From contig CALWTQ010000015.1 in assembly GCA_944384505.1 (NCBI GenBank), positions 1 through 60,797 of the forward strand: DNA of 60,797 bases, written 5' to 3'. Numbering within the stretch: the stretch's first letter is position 1; the number at the start of each line of letters is the position of its first letter. The translations under genes and the position numbers were made by a program. Under the pieces are notes generated by a model. The model was not told the DNA's origin, did not search any database, and worked only from the letters and a program-made list of their open reading frames with translations. The stretch comes from an uncultured Mediterraneibacter sp. Its GTDB lineage: Bacteria; Bacillota; Clostridia; Lachnospirales; Lachnospiraceae. Shown here in pieces: positions 15,115 to 60,797 of this stretch.

Positions 15115-15144
15115 CAGCTATTTAGCGCAATAACATTTCCTGTG
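15115..15144 (+). repeat. Relic (solo end) of the composite palindromic repeat
   Basis: The sequence CAGCTATTTAGCGCAATAAC followed by ATTTCCTGTG matches the outer end of the B module of the full repeats (for example the ends at 34330 and, reversed, 52892) with only a few differences. No A, C or inner B sequence is present. It is either a deletion remnant or an isolated terminal repeat. Confidence 0.8.
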
Positions 15145-34329: not shown

Positions 34330-35091
34330 CAGTTATTTAGCGCACTAACATTTTCTGTGACTCACGTCCGGAAGCGGAGCGGATGGTTTGCGATACGTAT
34401 TCTGTGAAAGGGGACAGCCGTGCGATGTTCCGTTCCAGAATCCGGAAAATCTAACAGGCCGAAGAGATGTTTAAAGGCAAAGCGGCGCTCCGGGCAACTC
34501 GCTGCGCTCAGACAATCCCTGCGCGCCGCTTAACAACATCTCTCCGCCCTTAAGCTTTTCAGCGGATTCCTCCAAAGTCACATCTTCCGGCTGTCTCCTT
34601 CCCCAGAAAGTTTACTCAAACCGTCCGCTCCGCTTCCTGCGTATTTCCAGACGGAAGTGTTATTGCCCTAAACAGGCTGAAACGCACAACTGGCGCGGCT
34701 TGAGGGCTTTTCGGCTGCGAAAGTCTTCCGGCCGCGCCTGCTTCTTCTGACAGCTATATATTCACTGACTTCCGGCTTGAAAAAGCCCAGAAAACAGCCC
34801 CATTTCGAGAAAGATTCTGCGGGGATGGAGGATGGCGACGGGCGCCTTCGGAAGGGGATTAGGGAAAGTTAAAGCTGCGGCGACAGACGTTAGGGCTGAC
34901 GGTGGAATTGTCTGAGCGGATGCGAGTTGTCCACCGTCAGTCCTTGCATTTAGTCTGCCGCCGCAGCTTTTAGTTTCACTTATCCCCTGTAGCGAAGCCC
35001 TGAGTCATCCTCCATCCCCGCAGAATACGCCTTAGAAATAGTCTCTGTTTTCGACCGTTTTGAACAAGGACGTTAGTGAACTAAATAGCTG
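34330..35091 (-). repeat. Composite palindromic repeat, copy 1 (B-C-A order)
   Basis: A full unit in reverse orientation: B palindrome 34330-34679, C hairpin 34680-34750, A palindrome 34751-35091. The ends are inverted repeats (CAGTTATTTAGCGCACTAAC at the left, GTTAGTGAACTAAATAGCTG at the right). A's stem is of subtype 1 (GCTGCGGCGACAGAC paired with GTCTGCCGCCGCAGC). The right end abuts the spoIIE stop codon at 35092. No conserved reading frame is present. It fills the whole gap between spoIIE and tilS. Confidence 0.9.
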
Positions 35092-36489
35092 TCATGCCCT
35101 CCAGATTCCAACGGCCAGCACTGTCATGTCATCCGCCGGTTCTTTCCCTGTCCAGGCCAGCACCTGTTCCAGCACATGGTGTGCCAGTTCTTTGGGATTG
35201 GAGATTTCCGTCCCCTGGATGATGGTCTCCAGCAGGATATCCTGTTCCCCCACCGGCAGCGCATCCAGCACGCCGTCTGTTACCATGATGACAAAGTCTC
35301 CGTCCTCCAGCTGTCTTTTGACGGAATCTATCTCGATCCGATTCATTACGCCGATCGGAAGGCTTGTGGAACTCAGATGCTCAACGTGATCTTTTTTCCT
35401 GATAAAGGTGGACGACGCACCTGCCTTGATGATCTCGCACTCTCCTGTATACAGGTCAAATACGGTCATGTCCACAGTGGAATAATGTATCTCCTCCCTT
35501 CCCATGACCAGGGTGGTGTTAATCATCTGGATCGCTGTTTTCTCCGGGAACCCCGCCTCAATCAACTCTTCCAGCAGTTCGATAACCAGGGTGCTCTCCC
35601 TGCATGCCTCTTCCCCGGAGCCCATTCCGTCAGAGAGGACAGCGCCGCGCCGTCCGCCCGGCATTTCCATCATGGAGAAATTGTCTCCGGAGATTTTTTC
35701 ACATCCTCTTCCGATACGCGCAGTTCCCTGCATGGTATAAAAGGCCGGCCCTTCCCGGCACACGACCGTTACATAACGGTTTCCCATCATCATAACACTG
35801 TCCCCCGGAAGCACGAAACGTCTCCCTGATATATCGGATACAGTTTTCACCACTTCCCTGACCGGTATCTTTTGCTTCCCCATGTTCCGGGCAGTGACAT
35901 GGATCTCATATCTCCCCTCACTATTCATAAAGAAATTTGTATACAGTACGCGAATCCCTTTCCGCTTCAGGGCTGTTACGATCTTCTTTTCCAGCCGTTC
36001 ATCTGAAAAGATACTCTGTTCCAGTTCCTTCGCGGCATTCTGAATCACGTCCGCGAATGTGTCGAGCTGGATAGCGCACCCCTCCCTGCTTCTTGCCAGC
36101 CGGTTCCCCCACATAATGTTCTGCCGCGCCGAATGGAATCCTGTAAGCATCTCGCGCAGGAACCGGGGAGCCATAATGCATTTCTGCATCAGCTTCCTCT
36201 TGACCTCTGTATTCAGCTCGTTCCCATACTGGTCCACAGCCGAAAGAATCTCATACCCCATCTGATAAGTATGTACAAAGTTTTCCCCCCAGCACCAGCC
36301 GCATTTCTCGCATTTCCCGCACACCTTTTCTTTTACCTCGGCAAACATCTCCTCAATCTCCTCCGAAGAAAAGGCCTGCCGCTTCTCCTCCAGTCCCATG
36401 AAAGTCTGCGAGAGCTGCCGGAGCGACCGGGAAAGCTTTTCAATCTGTTCGACATAAGGGCTCCCGTGCAATGCCTGTCCCTGATTCAT
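35092..36489 (-). CDS. spoIIE: SpoIIE-like PP2C phosphatase lacking the membrane domain
   Basis: The product is 465 aa. The C-terminal PP2C domain (about residues 255-465) is clear: GDNFSMMEMPGGRRGAVLSD, GMGSGEEACRESTLVIELLE, IMVTDGVLDALPVGEQD and DDMTVLAVGIW hold the metal-binding Asp residues. The N-terminal part is soluble and has a Cys cluster (VCGKCEKCGWCWGENF). Classical SpoIIE carries about 10 membrane segments before the phosphatase; none are present. The position after divIC and before tilS matches spoIIE. Its expected job is to dephosphorylate SpoIIAA and activate sigma-F in the forespore. The ATG at 36489 has AAAGGAAG upstream. Confidence 0.9.
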   Translation of the reverse strand: MNQGQALHGSPYVEQIEKLSRSLRQLSQTFMGLEEKRQAFSSEEIEEMFAEVKEKVCGKCEKCGWCWGENFVHTYQMGYEILSAVDQYGNELNTEVKRKLMQKCIMAPRFLREMLTGFHSARQNIMWGNRLARSREGCAIQLDTFADVIQNAAKELEQSIFSDERLEKKIVTALKRKGIRVLYTNFFMNSEGRYEIHVTARNMGKQKIPVREVVKTVSDISGRRFVLPGDSVMMMGNRYVTVVCREGPAFYTMQGTARIGRGCEKISGDNFSMMEMPGGRRGAVLSDGMGSGEEACRESTLVIELLEELIEAGFPEKTAIQMINTTLVMGREEIHYSTVDMTVFDLYTGECEIIKAGASSTFIRKKDHVEHLSSTSLPIGVMNRIEIDSVKRQLEDGDFVIMVTDGVLDALPVGEQDILLETIIQGTEISNPKELAHHVLEQVLAWTGKEPADDMTVLAVGIWRA

Positions 36490-40391: not shown

Positions 40392-40859
40392 CAGCTATAA
40401 AGTTCAATAACTTCCACGTGTAAAACTTCCGAAAACAGAGACTATTCCAAAGACGTATTCTGCGGGGATGGAGGATGACTAAGGGCTTCGCTCCAGGAGA
40501 TAAGGGAAACTAAAAGCTGCGGCGACAGACTAAATGCAAGGGCTGACGGTGGACAACTCGCATCCGCTCAAACAATTCCACCGTCAGCCCTAACGTCTGC
40601 CACCGCAGCTTTAACTTTCCCTAATCTCCTTCCGAAGGCGCCCTTAGTCATCCTCCATCCCCGCAGAATTTTTCTCGAAATGGGGCTGTTTTCTGGGCCT
40701 TTCAAGGCGGGAGTCAGTGAATATATAGCTGTGAGTAGAAGCAGGCGAGGCCGGAAGACTTTCGTAGTCGAAAGTCCCCTTTCACAGAATACGTATCGCA
40801 AACCATCCCCTCCGCTTCCGGACGTGAGTCACGGGAAATGTTATTGCGCTAAATAGCTG
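40392..40859 (+). repeat. Composite palindromic repeat, copy 2 (internally deleted)
   Basis: A complete A palindrome (40392-40731) of stem subtype 1, then half of the C hairpin, then only the outer right arm of B ending GCGCTAAATAGCTG at 40859. Compared with copies 1 and 4 it lacks most of C and the left arm, tip and inner right arm of B. The junction falls at CCCCTTTCACAG. It occupies the space between the cotS-like gene (stop at 40867) and the phosphoglucomutase promoter. Confidence 0.88.
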
Positions 40860-40866
40860 TACTTCT

Positions 40867-41883
40867 CTACAGATGTAATGAAAATATTTCCTCCAGAAAC
40901 CCATATTTTTCCTCTGTCTGCCGGACCGCCAGCTCCAGCTTTTCTACATATTTTTCGGGGAGCCATGCCTTATTTGAGTGGTAATATGTGCTTGCTGTTT
41001 TCCAGTATTTTTCGGGATAGGCCAGGCAGACGGCAGTATATTCCAGCTCTCTTGGGCTGAGTTTTCTTTCCTGCGAATAGGCTTCCAGTATCTTCCGTCC
41101 GGTTTTTTGTTTCCAATGACACTTTTCCATGACTTTCCTTGTGAAATAATACAGATCCTGAACCTGAACGCCTGCATGTATCCGCTCAAACCCGGTCACC
41201 GCCATGTCCTCTTTCATCACAAGAAGATTATGGTAATTATAGTCCCCGTGCACCATACTCCCCTCACGTGACGCATCCTGCCAGAGCAGGAAGCTTTCTG
41301 TTCCTTCCATCTTTTTAAGAACTTTTTCCGCGATCTCATACATTGACTCAAAGCTCTCAAGGAAAAGCGCTTCGAACTCATTTTTCACTGTGCGTTTCCG
41401 TATAAATGTTCTCACTTTTTTCAGTTCCCGGTTATGCCTCCGGATCTCCTCCGCAGGGTCTCTCAGAGTACCTGCGCCTTCCAGATGGTACGTCCTGTCT
41501 GGATCCCACAGCTCTTGTTTTCCGAGTTCCCTGTGAAGAACGGCAAGCTTCATCGCGGCCTGCTCCATCTCCTCTTCCTGCCGGATATCACACTCTTTCC
41601 CCGGATACCACTTTTTCAGCATATAAGTCCTGCCTTCCCTGGAAGTAACAAGTAGTTCTCCATCCCGCGTGAATACCGGCGTATCAACTTTCAGTGTCCC
41701 CTGCCCTTCAATATAGCTGAGCACAGCATACAATAAGGGGGCGCGCCGCGCGGACACCTTCGTCTCTTTCAGCAGCATCGTCCCCTCATTTGTATCGCAA
41801 AAAAACGCACCCCTGATTCTGCGGGTGCCTTTTACCTCGATCTCATACCGCTCCAGCACTTCAAGTTCATATTCTTCCCTCAT
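40867..41883 (-). CDS. CotS-like spore coat kinase-fold protein (possible pseudokinase)
   Basis: A 338-aa protein of the CotS/HSK2-like phosphotransferase family: YMLKKWYPGKECDIRQEEEM, RRHNRELKKVRTFIRKRTVK (typical of CotS) and the catalytic-loop motif MVHGDYNYHNLLVMKED. The next segment, where relatives have a metal-binding IDFD, reads AVTGFERIHAG, so the Asp is missing. It may be a structural or pseudo-kinase component of the spore coat. The start codon follows GGGGG. Its stop is seven bases from repeat copy 2. Confidence 0.8.
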   Translation of the reverse strand: MREEYELEVLERYEIEVKGTRRIRGAFFCDTNEGTMLLKETKVSARRAPLLYAVLSYIEGQGTLKVDTPVFTRDGELLVTSREGRTYMLKKWYPGKECDIRQEEEMEQAAMKLAVLHRELGKQELWDPDRTYHLEGAGTLRDPAEEIRRHNRELKKVRTFIRKRTVKNEFEALFLESFESMYEIAEKVLKKMEGTESFLLWQDASREGSMVHGDYNYHNLLVMKEDMAVTGFERIHAGVQVQDLYYFTRKVMEKCHWKQKTGRKILEAYSQERKLSPRELEYTAVCLAYPEKYWKTASTYYHSNKAWLPEKYVEKLELAVRQTEEKYGFLEEIFSLHL

Positions 41884-48751: not shown

Positions 48752-49204
48752 CAAAAAACTAGCTGTAGTTCAGCTATTTCGTCTAACAGCTATTTAGCGC
48801 ACTAACGTCTGGATGAGAAACGTCCGAAAACAGCGACTGTTTCAAAAACGTATTCTGCGGGGATGGAGGACGGCTCAGGGCTTCGCTCCAGGGGATAAGG
48901 GAAACTAAGAAGTTGCGGCTGCGGATTAGATACAAGGACAGGAGGGGAGCAACTCGCTTCGCTCAGACAATCTCCCCTCCTGCCCTAACATCCGCAGCCG
49001 CAACTTCAAGTTTCCCTAATCCCCTCCGAAGGCGCCCGTCGCCCTCCTCCATCCCCGCAGAATTTTTCTCGAAATGGGGCTGTTTTCTGGGCTTTTCAAG
49101 CCGGAAGTTAGTGAATATATAGCTGCTGCGAGAAACAGGCGCGGCCGGAAGGCTTTCGCAGTCGAAAGCCCACAGGCCGCGCCAACTCGCGTTTTACAGC
49201 CTAA

Positions 49205-49876
49205 GTCACAACCACCACTTCAAGTGGTGGTTTGGGTTGGCCCTCATAAGGGCCGATTGCGCGCTCGCCCAAAAGGGCGGGTATCGCAAGCGTTGTTACT
49301 GGTCCGCTTATAAAGCGGTACTACTTGAATCTTCTTTCCTCGATTCTTCTGCCTGCTCTCTTATATATTTCTTTATTGCATCTTCTGTGATATTACCAAT
49401 TGTTGAAACGTAATATCCTCTAGCCCAAAATGCTTTATCCCATTTACTCTGTAATTTGGGATGTCTATCATATATCATTAATGTGCTCTTTCCTTTTAAG
49501 TACCCCATAAATTTTGATATGCTATACTTTGGCGGAATCGCTACGCTTAAATGAATATGATCCTCGCATACTGCACCATCTATAATCTCTACGTCTTTAT
49601 ACCTGCATAACGTTGAAATTATATCCCGCACGTCTGCTTTTATTTTTCCATACAGAATTTTCTTTCTATATTTCGGTATAAAAACGATATGGTACTGGCA
49701 TTTCCAACTTACATGTGATAAGCTCTTTTTGTCCATTTGTGACCGCCTCCTATGCTAATTTTTGAGTTTGGCTTGCGACACCATTCTCATTTTAGCATAG
49801 GAGGCTTTTTATTGGTATCTTACACCGTTCCTGCTTACTCCATTCTCCCCAGCATAGCTGGGGGATTAGCTCTTTC
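49205..49876 (-). mobile_element. IS200-type insertion sequence (tnpA only)
   Basis: The element is about 670 bp. Its limits are inferred by comparing the interrupted repeat copy 3 with the uninterrupted copy 4. The left end (at high coordinates) has the terminal hairpin CCCCAGcataGCTGGGG (49847-49863) and a 14-bp inverted repeat GCCTCCTATGCTAA (49745-49758/49792-49805) with a T-run, which shields tnpA from outside transcription as in IS200. The right end has the hairpin AACCACCACTT/AAGTGGTGGTT (49210-49232). There is no tnpB gene and no terminal inverted repeat, as expected for HUH single-strand transposition. Confidence 0.88.
49308..49736 (-). CDS. tnpA: IS200-family HUH transposase TnpA
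   Basis: A 142-aa Y1 transposase. The HUH motif is in VCEDHIHLSVAIPP, the catalytic Tyr in ARGYYVSTIGN, and the N-terminus HVSWKCQYHIVFIPKYRKKI is typical. The length is normal for an active enzyme and no frameshift is seen. GGAGG lies 9 bases upstream of the ATG. It would excise and insert single-stranded DNA at hairpin-marked ends; the copy sits inside a large palindrome, a plausible single-strand target during replication. Confidence 0.95.
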   Translation of the reverse strand: MDKKSLSHVSWKCQYHIVFIPKYRKKILYGKIKADVRDIISTLCRYKDVEIIDGAVCEDHIHLSVAIPPKYSISKFMGYLKGKSTLMIYDRHPKLQSKWDKAFWARGYYVSTIGNITEDAIKKYIREQAEESRKEDSSSTAL

Positions 49877-50265
49877 ATTAAGCAGTAACATTTCCGGCAG
49901 GAAATGCGCAGGAAGCGGAGGGGATGTTTGAAGCGTAAGTTCTTTGAGCGGGGGCGTGTGGGGACTGTGACTTTGGAGGAATCTGATGGAAGATCTTAGA
50001 AGGCGGAGAGCTGTTGTTAAGCGGTGCGCAGGGATTGTTTGAGCGGAGCGAGTTGCCCGGAGCGCCGCTTTGCACTTAAACAGCTCTCCGACTTCTTAGA
50101 TCCTTCCCGGATTCCGGAACGGAACAGTACACACACGTCCCCTCTCCAAGAACACGTTTCAAACATCCCCTCCGCTTTCGGACGTGAGTCACAGGAAATA
50201 TTAGTGCGCTAAATAGCTGAACTACTGCAAATGGTGTGTGGCGAGCGGATCTTTCGGCGCAGAAT

Positions 50266-50280
50266 TGGCACAGTTCTTGC
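50266..50280 (+). promoter_or_regulatory. Sigma-54 promoter of acyl-CoA dehydrogenase/lactonase pair
   Basis: TGGCACAGTTCTTGC followed by T matches TGGCAYRNNNNTTGCW fully. GG (50267-50268) and GC (50279-50280) are 10 bases apart. The GC is 44 bases from the start codon at 50324. Confidence 0.87.
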
Positions 50281-50323
50281 TATATATTACTGTATCTACA
50301 AATTTAAAAGGAGACGATGATCT

Positions 50324-51277
50324 ATGAGGAAAACATCTGTTGAAAATTTTGAAATTGCTGTGCTGGGCGCCGGTACTATGGGGCTGTGCGTGGCACAATT
50401 TTTCGCTATGAACGGGCATGAGGTTAATCTGTACAACAGGACATATGCCAATCTGGACAAAGCCCTGATTCAGATCCGCAGCAATCTGCAGACTCTCGTA
50501 TCTTTAGATCAGATCAGCAAGGAAGATCTCCGCTCTGCCATGGCGCACATTCACGGAACCGGCGATCTGAAGGAAGCTGTGGAACACGCAGATTTCGTCA
50601 TTGAAAATGTAGCCGAGAGAGAAGACGTCAAGAAGGAGATTTTTGCAAAAATTGATGAATTCTGCGATGAAGACGTCATTTTTTCCAGCGATACTTCCAC
50701 AATGAACATTTACGAGTTTCTCGAAGTCAGTCACCCGGAGCGTCTTATTATCACCCACTTCTTCAATCCGGCCTATGTAATGCCCCTGGTGGAAGTTGTC
50801 CGCGGTCCGCACACTTCTGACGAAACCACAGCGGTCACAAAAGCGCTCCTGGAATCCTGCGGCAAGAAAACAGCCGTCATCAACAAAGCGATTCCCGGAT
50901 TTATCTTGAACCGCATTACCATGGCTGTATTCCGCGAAGCCGCCTACATCGCCGGAAACGGCTGGGCTTCTCCTGAGGATATTGACAAGGCGATCGTATC
51001 CACTTTTGGTCCTCGCTATACCTTTGAAGGTCCATTCGGACTCAGCGATTTCGCGGGCCTTGACATTTACGAAAGGCTTGCCACTCTTCTGTATCCTGTA
51101 CTCTGCTCCGACACAGAAGCGCCCTCCATTCTCACAGATAAAACAGGGAATGGAATCCTCGGAGTAAAATCCGGCGAAGGCTTTTATGAATACACGGACG
51201 CGGCAGAAGCCCACAGAGCGCGCGACTCGAAAATCATGAAAATGATCCAGGCCATCAACGCCGTAAACAATTCTTAA
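50324..51277 (+). CDS. 3-hydroxyacyl-CoA dehydrogenase family protein
   Basis: A 317-aa NAD-dependent L-3-hydroxyacyl-CoA dehydrogenase-type enzyme. The N-terminal Rossmann motif AVLGAGTMGLCVAQFFAMNG is followed by ADFVIENVAEREDVKKEIFA, the SSDTSTMNIYEFLEVSHPER segment, ITHFFNPAYVMPLVEVVRG (catalytic His) and PGFILNRITMAVFREAAYIA. The C-terminal dimer domain ends with GILGVKSGEGFYEYT. It is close in size to butyryl-pathway Hbd but diverged, so the substrate is likely a branched or cyclic 3-hydroxyacyl-CoA (inference). It is read from the sigma-54 promoter and followed after 19 bases by the MBL gene. Confidence 0.92.
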   Translation: MRKTSVENFEIAVLGAGTMGLCVAQFFAMNGHEVNLYNRTYANLDKALIQIRSNLQTLVSLDQISKEDLRSAMAHIHGTGDLKEAVEHADFVIENVAEREDVKKEIFAKIDEFCDEDVIFSSDTSTMNIYEFLEVSHPERLIITHFFNPAYVMPLVEVVRGPHTSDETTAVTKALLESCGKKTAVINKAIPGFILNRITMAVFREAAYIAGNGWASPEDIDKAIVSTFGPRYTFEGPFGLSDFAGLDIYERLATLLYPVLCSDTEAPSILTDKTGNGILGVKSGEGFYEYTDAAEAHRARDSKIMKMIQAINAVNNS

Positions 51278-51296
51278 AAGAAAGGACGTCCTAACT

Positions 51297-52133
51297 ATGA
51301 GTAAAGTTTCAAAGACACGTTTCACACTGCTCCACCTGGCAGATTTTGACGCTTATAAAGATGAGCATGTAACACTTTCTGAATCAGAGTCAGCCAGAAA
51401 CAGGGAAAACAGGATTGTCTGGCCTCTGAACTGCTATGCTGTGCTCATTCAGCATCCGGTTCTTGGAAATATCCTCTATGACACCGGAATTGATGCAAAC
51501 TGGAGCTATCGCTGGCCCCGCAACCTGGCGGAAGACTATCCGGTACACCGCTCCTTTGATCTGAAAGAGAAACTGCGGGAAGTCGGTTTATATCCGGACG
51601 ACATCGATCTTCTCATCATCTCCCACCTACATTTTGACCATGCGGGGAATCTCCACATGTTCCGCGGAACAAAGGCAGGAGAAGGAGTTATTATTCAGGA
51701 GGCGGAGGCCGCGCACGCCTTCATGCTGTCCAATATATATGATCCGTCCAAAATCGAATACCGGGGCGACGGATACGTCCGCCACGAATTCAACGGACTT
51801 GATGGAATATCATTCAAACTGGTAAACGGTGACTGTAAACTGGCAGATGATCTGGAACTGCTGCTCCTGCCCGGACACACTCCCGGCACTATGGGCCTTG
51901 TCGTAAGGACCGAGGAGACGGGCACAGCCATCTTTCCGTCAGATGCAGTATACAACGCCACAAATTTCGGTCCGCCGGCAGTCCTCCCGGGAATGTGCGC
52001 CCGGCCGGAAGAATACGGGAACAGCATAGAAAAATGCAGAAAAATCGCAGAAGCCGAGAATGGTACAGTATTTTTCAGCCATGATGTAAATACCTTTAAG
52101 ACATACAAAAAATCACCGGAGTGGTATGATTAA
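51297..52133 (+). CDS. Metallo-beta-lactamase fold hydrolase, lactonase-like
   Basis: A 278-aa protein with the HxHxDH zinc motif in LIISHLHFDHAGNLHMFRG, a second site in LLLPGHTPGTMGLVVRTEET, then AIFPSDAVYN and a late His in VFFSHDVNTF, as in AHL lactonases and related thioester or lactone hydrolases. In this operon it could open a lactone or cleave a CoA thioester. AAAGGA precedes the ATG. The stop codon TAA (52131-52133) is itself part of the TAACAGCTAT sequence at the edge of repeat copy 4. Confidence 0.88.
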   Translation: MSKVSKTRFTLLHLADFDAYKDEHVTLSESESARNRENRIVWPLNCYAVLIQHPVLGNILYDTGIDANWSYRWPRNLAEDYPVHRSFDLKEKLREVGLYPDDIDLLIISHLHFDHAGNLHMFRGTKAGEGVIIQEAEAAHAFMLSNIYDPSKIEYRGDGYVRHEFNGLDGISFKLVNGDCKLADDLELLLLPGHTPGTMGLVVRTEETGTAIFPSDAVYNATNFGPPAVLPGMCARPEEYGNSIEKCRKIAEAENGTVFFSHDVNTFKTYKKSPEWYD

Positions 52134-52892
52134 CAGCTATAAGGTTCACTAACGTCCTTTTGCAAAACGTCCGAAAACAACTCCTTTGCCAAGACGTATT
52201 CTGCGGGGATGGCGGACGGCTCTGGGCTTCGCTCCATGGGATAAGGGAAACTAAGAAGTTGCGGCTGCGGATTAGATACAAGGACAGGAGGAGAGCAACT
52301 CGCTTCGCTCAGACAATCTCCCCTCCTGCCCTAACATCCGCAGCCGCAGCTTCAAGTTTCTCTAATCCCCTTACGAAGGCACCCGTCGCCATCCTCCATT
52401 CCCGCAGAATTTTTCTCGAAATGGGGCTGTTTTCTGGGCCTTTCAAGGCGGGAGTCAGTGAATATATAGCTGTGAGTAGAAGCAGGCGCGGCCGGAAGAC
52501 TTTCGTAATGGAAAGCCTCCAAGCCGCGCCAGTTGTGCGTTTCAGCCTGTTTAGGGCAATAACACTTCCGACAGGAAATGCGCAGGAAGCGGGGCGGATG
52601 GTTTGAGCATACTTTCTGGGGAAGGGGACAGCCGGGAGATGTGACTCTGGAGGAATCCGCTGAAAATCTTTAGGGTGGAGAGATGTTGTTAAGCGGCGCG
52701 CAGGGATTGTCTGAGCACAGCGAGTTGCCCGGAGCGCCGCTTTGCCTTTAAACATCTCTTCGGCCTGTTAGATTTTCCGGATTCTGGAACGGAGCATCGC
52801 ACGGCTGTCCCCTTTCACAGAATACGTATCGCAAACCATCCGCTCCGCTTCCGAACGTAAGTCACAGGAAATGTTTGTGCGCTAAATAGCTG
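52134..52892 (+). repeat. Composite palindromic repeat, copy 4 (intact type copy)
   Basis: A complete 759-bp unit: A palindrome 52134-52472 (subtype 2 stem), C hairpin 52473-52542, B palindrome 52543-52892. It fills the whole interval between the stop codons of two convergent operons (MBL gene stop 52131-52133, flavin reductase stop at 52901), with no other terminator visible. A's tip reads CAACTCGCTTCGCTCAGACA and B's tip carries the same motif in reverse. Open frames inside are not conserved between copies. Confidence 0.92.
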
Positions 52893-60501: not shown

Positions 60502-60797
60502 CAGCTATAAAGTTCACTAACACCCTACTGTAAAACGGCCGAAAACAGAGTCGATTCTCAAGACGTATTCTGCGGGGATGGAGGACGGCTCAGGGCTTCG
60601 CTCCAGGGGATAAGGGAAACTAAGAAGTTCCGGCTGCGGATTAGATGCAAGGACAGGAGGGGAGCAACTCACTTCGCTCAGACAATCTCCCCTCCTGTCC
60701 TAACATCCGCAGCCGCAACCTCAAGTTTCCCTAATCCCCTTCCGAAGGCGCCCGTCGCCGTCCTCCATCCCCGCAGAATTTTTCTCGAAATGGGGCT
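60502..60797 (+). repeat. Composite palindromic repeat, copy 5 (cut by window end)
   Basis: It starts CAGCTATAAAGTTCACTAAC and contains nearly all of an A palindrome (stem subtype 2, tip CAACTCACTTCGCTCAGACA) up to the window edge. Whether C and B follow is not visible. Confidence 0.9.

Follow-up and report, generated by a model that had tools for sequence, protein, structure and literature searches.

Introduction

To our knowledge, most described dispersed palindromes of bacteria are short, and those of the GTAG type are tied to their own transposase. Miniature inverted-repeat transposable elements (MITEs) such as Correia, RUP or ERIC are short, non-coding inverted-repeat elements with many intergenic copies, which retain a parent transposon's ends and in most cases generate a target duplication, while integron attC sites are single-strand hairpins recognized by structure, with variable arms and a conserved base. 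Repetitive extragenic palindromes (REPs) are defined, in the accessible text of PMC6006769 and PMC2817692, as units of 20–40 bp with GTAG or GTGG at the foot, and the inverted hairpin doublets of GTAG REPs with REP-associated tyrosine transposases (RAYTs), known as REP doublets forming hairpins (REPINs) or bacterial interspersed mosaic elements (BIMEs), are proposed in the available parts of PMC3116915 and PMC2817692 to multiply as a unit. CGTC-tagged REPs, as far as the accessible sections of PMC3733652 describe them, are 20–40 bp long with stems of 8–9 bp and a terminal tag, form dimers that are mostly head-to-head with the tags outside, lie downstream of genes in several phyla and have no known dedicated transposase; the same sections note G·T pairs in REP stems for GTAG families. 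Here we describe a family of composite palindromic elements of about 760 bp, found in a 60,797-nt stretch of the genome of an uncultured Mediterraneibacter species (contig CALWTQ010000015.1; the whole stretch is referred to as the window). New here are a conserved hairpin apex, an exact 20-mer shared across phyla and a single divergent doublet order, all three of which had been overlooked when a sequence-only reading of the window described the composite structure. That one tip recurs in otherwise dissimilar hairpins of very distant bacteria suggests a widespread kind of mobile or structured DNA for which no description exists to date.

Results

The element consists of two imperfect palindromes of about 340 bp, A and B, which flank a C hairpin; each palindrome is a unit of 339–350 bp with ends CAGCTATTTAG...CTAAATAGCTG. 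In copy 4 of the window, A (52134–52472, apex-sense on the minus strand) is followed by a C spacer with a GC-rich hairpin (52473–52542; hairpin arms at about 52485–52492 and 52523–52530) and by B (52543–52892, apex-sense on the plus strand), and all four ends of the two units are versions of CAGCTATTTAGCGCACTAAC. The apex of A is the exact 20-mer TTGTCTGAGCGAAGCGAGTT (52297–52316, minus), and that of B is TTGTCTGAGC-ACA-GCGAGTT (52707–52726, plus). Copy 4 folds as three hairpins at −395 kcal/mol, compared with a mean of −261.9 (standard deviation 9.7) for shuffled sequences (z −13.7; 0/20 shuffles as good), and copies across the genome have the A-C-B order in common, which bears out the three-part composite proposed earlier.

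Each apex stands between the arms and comprises TTGTCTGA, a mini-hairpin (2-bp stem, 3-nt loop) and GAGTT. The TGTC of the tip is embedded in a long rod and faces the inside of the doublet. Among the matches listed for the genus, both sides of this mini-stem change together (GC/GC, GT/AC, AC/GT and CC/GG), with some wobble or single variants. B units of the Mediterraneibacter genome carry the further loops ACA, AGA, AAA and GGA, and the loop is therefore not fixed. All 193 relaxed apex matches in the fetched loci pair in the mini-stem, with no matches for the reversed control, a figure that is partly by construction because 106 of these loci were fetched by the exact motif. GCGAAGC is an extra-stable DNA mini-hairpin, and the GA...GA steps of the tip could presumably be read as kink-turn-like.

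The exact 20-mer occurs in at least 106 stretches of the genome_contigs collection, for which about 0.5 matches would be expected with uniform bases. Assigned from record names, these belong to five phyla (Bacillota, Bacteroidota, Pseudomonadota, Desulfobacterota and Thermotogota) and include, among others, Burkholderiales genera, Marinobacter, Sedimenticola, Xanthomonas, Bacteroides, Porphyromonadaceae, Lachnospiraceae, Clostridium, Phascolarctobacterium, Desulfobacterales, Adiutrix and Thermotoga. Clustering the arms of 118 apex units at E 1e-3 gave 28 groups, of which the largest has 65 members. When ≤1 mismatch was allowed and the loop base was left free, twelve named genomes held between 1 and 67 apexes each; the corresponding reversed control was 0 in 11 of them and 1 in the Thermotoga metagenome-assembled genome. 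The viral collection contains the exact apex in 1 stretch (L233:6440–6600), which by eye resembles a Bacteroides-type unit and is perhaps host DNA beside a prophage.

In the fetched loci, 53/55 pairs of neighboring apexes separated by less than 700 bp are ordered minus then plus, where random orientation would by our expectation give about a quarter. All 20 genus pairs follow this order at a spacing of about 410 bp; 16 are from the Mediterraneibacter genome itself and so are not independent. The non-genus pairs, mostly from Burkholderiales, do so in 33/35 cases, or in 27/29 without six Ralstonia and Bacteroides loci that had been fetched by hand because a close apex pair had shown up in the genome counts. 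The two exceptions are L112 (minus–minus) and L294 (plus–minus). In Ralstonia the doublets are about 550 bp long and their inverted ends are sharp. A small palindrome on the outside of the Bacteroides doublets resembles the Ralstonia one; judged by eye, in both (L314–L324) it surrounds the box TTTGTCTTG..CAAAG. The doublets in these two groups indicate that the composite recurs, beyond the single unit.

Comparison of the folding stability of apex windows with that of random windows of the same loci was mixed, with the apex window lowest in 49/95 cases and outside the best fifth in 27/95, and shuffled controls were therefore added. With these, z was below −3 in 54/93 windows around an apex and in 7/93 windows 2.5 kb away. 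Strand preference was examined by replacing the apex with a neutral loop and folding the 50-nt arms in both senses. The arms fold better in the apex sense in 53/54 genus units, and in 68/104 (RNA parameters) or 89/104 (DNA parameters) of the other units. Counts of G·T against A·C pairs in the apex sense are 42:8, 8:2 and 49:2 in the genus sets and 97:77 elsewhere for 40-nt arms, and 157:78, 46:12, 113:36 and 494:449, respectively, for 120-nt arms. These results support folding of the apex-sense strand, and the folded molecule could be either RNA or single-stranded DNA.

The whole-genome and relatives search with copy 4 that had been suggested yielded many further copies. Blastn against the Mediterraneibacter genome (141 contigs, 3.95 Mb), where 40 of 335 candidates were scored, found at least 40 strong copies with 82–100% identity, most of which span nearly the whole query. 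The terminal 16-mer (≤2 mismatches) matches this genome 95 times forward and 98 times in reverse, 193 in all, and the apex 20-mer (≤2 mismatches) 83 and 93 times, 176 in all, each with a reversed control of 0. As an element has two tips as well as two ends, these numbers would correspond to roughly 90–100 elements, and the genome thus holds at least forty copies and probably about a hundred. The ends of 25 loci were read; both ends and the A-C-B order are common to the copies, and five shortened elements (L046, L047, L053, L059 and L069; ends 403–595 bp apart) lack internal segments of A, of B or of both, as would be expected from deletions at palindromes. Among 58 genomes of the genus, 22 gave a blastn match (up to nine candidates scored per genome) and 25 an apex at ≤2 mismatches, with a reversed control of 0 in all; in related species the arms differ in part and the ends are different ones. 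The element family is thus real and larger than first noted.

Among the first 100 of the 193 end-match places listed, an element end lies within about 300 bp of the start of the contig in at least 18 contigs, and the assembly is probably broken by the repeats. Between the contig end and each of three different elements (L022, L024 and L026) stands one and the same sequence, AATTATTATTGGCAAAGAT, as if beside another repeat.

Blastn of copy 4 on the window re-found all five copies listed by the sequence-only reading, in both orientations (copy 1 is reversed), and no conserved protein was seen in them on re-examination, in agreement with that account. Copy 1 (34330–35091, minus) is complete and 88.6% identical to copy 4, with its B apex at 34496–34515 (minus) and its A apex at about 34908–34928 (plus). 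Copy 2 (40392–40859, plus) is core-deleted, with query positions 1–382 joined to 674–759 (383–673 gone), and has an A apex variant at about 40555–40575 (minus). Copy 3 had been taken as one element at 48787–50219. Its element parts are present, namely A plus C (48787–49202, query 1–415, minus) with the exact 20-mer as apex (48951–48970, minus), and B (49882–50219, query 423–759, plus) with the apex TTGTTTGAGC-GGA-GCGAGTT (50035–50054, plus), but its length of 1433 bp is due to an overlooked IS200/IS605-type insertion that separates C from B (49203–49881, minus, bounded by the break in the blastn match) and encodes a 142-residue TnpA (49308–49736, minus; NF033573, 152 bits). Copy 5 (60502–60797, plus; query 1–295, 90.5%) is cut by the contig end and has its apex at 60666–60685 (minus). 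A 30-bp remnant of the outer end of B (15115–15144, minus, 93.3% identity) was absent from the earlier list. Several copies closely adjoin stop codons: copy 4 starts directly after a stop codon ending at 52133 and ends 8 bp before an opposing stop, copy 1 abuts an open reading frame (ORF) end at 35092, and copy 2 stops 7 bp short of an ORF end at 40867.

Rfam gave no match at the gathering score in the window or in 16 apex loci, and a permissive scan of six loci gave nothing relevant, only a separate T-box and two matches far below the gathering score. One sub-threshold match, to mir-580 (34 of 83 bits), lies on a unit of L243, and a T-box leader just above the gathering score was seen in a genus relative (L249:415–620). 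Copy 4 matched no plasmid and no phage record. A Variovorax unit matched 2 plasmid records, a Ralstonia doublet 11 plasmid records, each over 8–15% of the query, and no phage record, and a Bacteroides doublet 3 plasmid records over 14–27%; with few or no plasmid matches across the four elements, carriage by plasmids or phages was rejected. No description of these repeats was found in the literature searched by sequence and topic, most subscription journals and figures being outside its coverage. Neither a match to a known family nor a lack of copies beyond the window, the two outcomes named in advance as speaking against a new family, was thus encountered.

Gene context was assigned with a simple ORF caller, and one site was compared across the genus, namely the conserved gap between two convergent genes named sigK and PEPCK from their sequence alone. 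The comparison, at species level, covered 30 of the 53 matches reported, together with three loci from before, and an apex stands in the gap in 8/30 loci. Among the gaps whose length could be measured, that of two species is 92–98 bp long with an ordinary terminator hairpin; in G006, G022, G013, G028 and G053 it is 186–1296 bp long and contains an apex, with the terminator kept in G053; and in other species, including our Mediterraneibacter genome, it is 172–972 bp long with other content and no apex. Given this distribution and the likeness of four occupied gaps, species differ at this site, and its state was then inherited. A search for an empty site beside copy 4 with the neighboring gene (E 1e-40) matched only the genome itself and one other, at 39% identity.

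Discussion

On balance, these data lead us to lean towards a non-autonomous, REPIN-like inverted doublet of giant hairpins, whose single-strand apex would be recognized by a putative trans-acting factor. Two large hairpin units would be arranged in inverted order, with the apex-sense strands pointing apart and the short spacer C between them, and the full-length copies suggest that the whole A-C-B doublet is the multiplying unit. As single-stranded DNA or as a transcript, the apex-sense strand would fold into a rod with the tip TTGTCTGA-mini-hairpin-GAGTT, which may serve as the recognition point of the factor, and the factor would process the doublet or copy it into intergenic sites. The arms could drift or be re-made while staying complementary; we propose that this freedom is why distant bacteria share the tip and the doublet layout. 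Where a mobile element, a REP-like unit or a structured RNA had originally been offered, the evidence now favors the REPIN-like doublet, whose apex-sense strand would fold as RNA or as single-stranded DNA and whose mobility is inferred. A further-reaching proposal, which we consider possible and put forward tentatively, is that these giant paired hairpins are bacteria-wide selfish or structural DNA distinct from REPs, whose 20-nt tip is kept across phyla by a universal host protein that recognizes the folded single strand. With such a protein, from replication, recombination or RNA processing, the elements would need no transposase of their own.

Several observations weigh against the REPIN-like doublet or limit its support. 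No target duplication was seen as excess flank identity at lengths of 2–12 bp in 23 copies, and no autonomous copy or mobilizing gene was found. The proposed comparison of occupied and empty sites gave gaps with and without the element between species. In other phyla, z was above −3 in 39/93 apex windows, many of the weakly folding ones being from Burkholderiales, and the cross-phylum set was gathered by the exact apex, from which the share of such palindromes without an apex is not deducible. The excess of G·T over A·C is strong in the genus and weak elsewhere, and the genus counts are not independent, as the copies are related. Compensatory double changes are seen in only 7/97 pairs of the B alignment from the Mediterraneibacter genome, because the copies are alike, and one of the 33 non-genus minus–plus pairs is just 21 bp apart. 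At the sigK–PEPCK gap, four apex-free gaps are also long (571–972 bp) with other content, four occupied gaps are alike by blastn (93–97%), that is, by descent, and the distance between the species in the comparison is too large for clean empty sites.

The alternative that survives best, although we regard it as unlikely, is that the units are host-serving RNA, transcribed 3′-end structures such as bidirectional terminators, mRNA stabilizers or RNase III substrates, for which spread is secondary. Convergent genes flank the unit in 15/18 classified loci of low-copy genus genomes (20 examined, two at edges), compared with 0/35 of the remaining gaps (≥100 bp) of these loci, and in G029 they do so in 7/9. 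When the sigK–PEPCK gaps of four species were read whole, the element by eye stood where others have a terminator hairpin, and the G·T excess in the genus is as expected for RNA. However, only 5 of the 34 classified gaps in the Mediterraneibacter genome are convergent (21 tandem, 8 divergent; 8 more at edges), and in other phyla 20/63 classified loci are convergent compared with 40/177 control gaps (23 more inside called ORFs, 41 at edges). The distribution is also patchy, with no apex at ≤2 mismatches in 33/58 genus genomes, and divergent doublets are ill-suited to a terminator read from outside.

A MITE of a conventional DDE transposon, in which the CAGCTATTTAGCGCACTAAC ends would be terminal inverted repeats cut by a transposase in trans, appears somewhat less plausible still. 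The inverted ends are sharp in the Mediterraneibacter genome, in Ralstonia and in Bacteroides, where they are clade-specific, and copies occur in both orientations. Against this stand the missing target duplication and the fact that the apex, not the ends, is common to the clades. Moreover, facing ends are 403–765 bp apart in the loci read, too close for a transposase gene, except in copy 3 with its IS200 insertion, and no autonomous transposon with the same ends was found in the loci scanned, which cover part of the 193 end matches. At L153 and L164, where apexes lie 1.9 and 3.5 kb apart, no obvious transposase was seen by eye, no family search having been run, and in a set of 20 apex loci present singly or in low copy number, no gene was common to more than three. 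The bases just outside the ends lean to AACTGC reading outwards; the true ends may therefore be longer, or the target palindromic.

Mobilization by a RAYT or an IS200/IS605 TnpA, as for REPs, is highly improbable. The inverted hairpin doublet is as in REPINs, an IS200-type TnpA lies in copy 3, partial matches to such a TnpA adjoin element pieces at two loci (L072 and L074), and the Mediterraneibacter genome has one RAYT-like gene (L073:1099–1866, 255 aa; NF047646, 70.6 bits with a cut-off of 80). This gene adjoins one that by our reading resembles glycyl-tRNA synthetase and has no apex nearby, and none of 30 RAYT-type loci (30 of the 73 matches listed) has an apex within 1.5 kb at ≤4 mismatches. 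NF047646 matches occur in 20/30 apex genomes and are missing from 10/30. A Y1 transposase is present in our Mediterraneibacter genome. Y1_Tnp matches occur in 10/16 apex genomes and are missing from 6/16; in Clostridium sp. KNHs205, with 67 apexes, the only Y1 match is a sub-threshold remnant with stops, and RAYT-size Y1 matches are present in many genus genomes that have no apex. Such a mobilizer is neither universal nor linked to the apex in the loci read, and a general role for it is largely refuted.

A retroposon copied by a reverse transcriptase from folded RNA would account for the RNA-like G·T tolerance in the genus, but this too has very little probability, as RVT_1 matches are found in 13/21 apex genomes and absent from 8/21, including G008 (34 apexes; 89% complete) and the Thermotoga genome (15 apexes), and 30 reverse transcriptase loci gave two weak apex-like matches with 4 mismatches each, so that this enzyme is not universal and shows no convincing linkage. 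The KNHs205 genome has 24 RVT_1 matches (for example L335, L347 and L355).

For the favored REPIN-like doublet, a universal host factor or another type of enzyme remains as a candidate mobilizer. The combination of a tip, compensatory variation, one doublet order and dissimilar arms would amount to a conserved recognition signal, for which no name was found in our searches, and it predicts that some widely shared protein binds the tip. This bears on how repeats spread without a dedicated transposase, a question that the accessible part of PMC3733652 raises for CGTC REPs.

The nearest known kinds are REPINs and CGTC REPs. With MITEs the present elements share non-coding inverted repeats in many intergenic copies; they differ from MITEs in that the tip is conserved and no duplication or parent was found, and from IS200/IS605-derived elements in occurring in genomes with no Y1 transposase match. 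With attC sites they share hairpins with variable arms, but here the tip is conserved and not the base. Like CGTC-tagged REPs they occur in several phyla, downstream of genes, as dimers and with no known dedicated transposase; however, the outer tag, 8–9 bp stem and head-to-head dimers given in the available sections of PMC3733652 are not seen here, the TGTC side points inwards, and a 20-nt shared apex is not described in those sections. Like REPINs and BIMEs, as described in the accessible sources, the elements are intergenic inverted hairpin doublets with many copies per genome and no coding capacity. Unlike REPINs, they have no GTAG or GTGG foot and no RAYT flanked by repeats among the loci examined, and consist of units of about 340 bp rather than 20–40 bp, in which conservation lies at the apex instead of the foot and one tip is shared across phyla.

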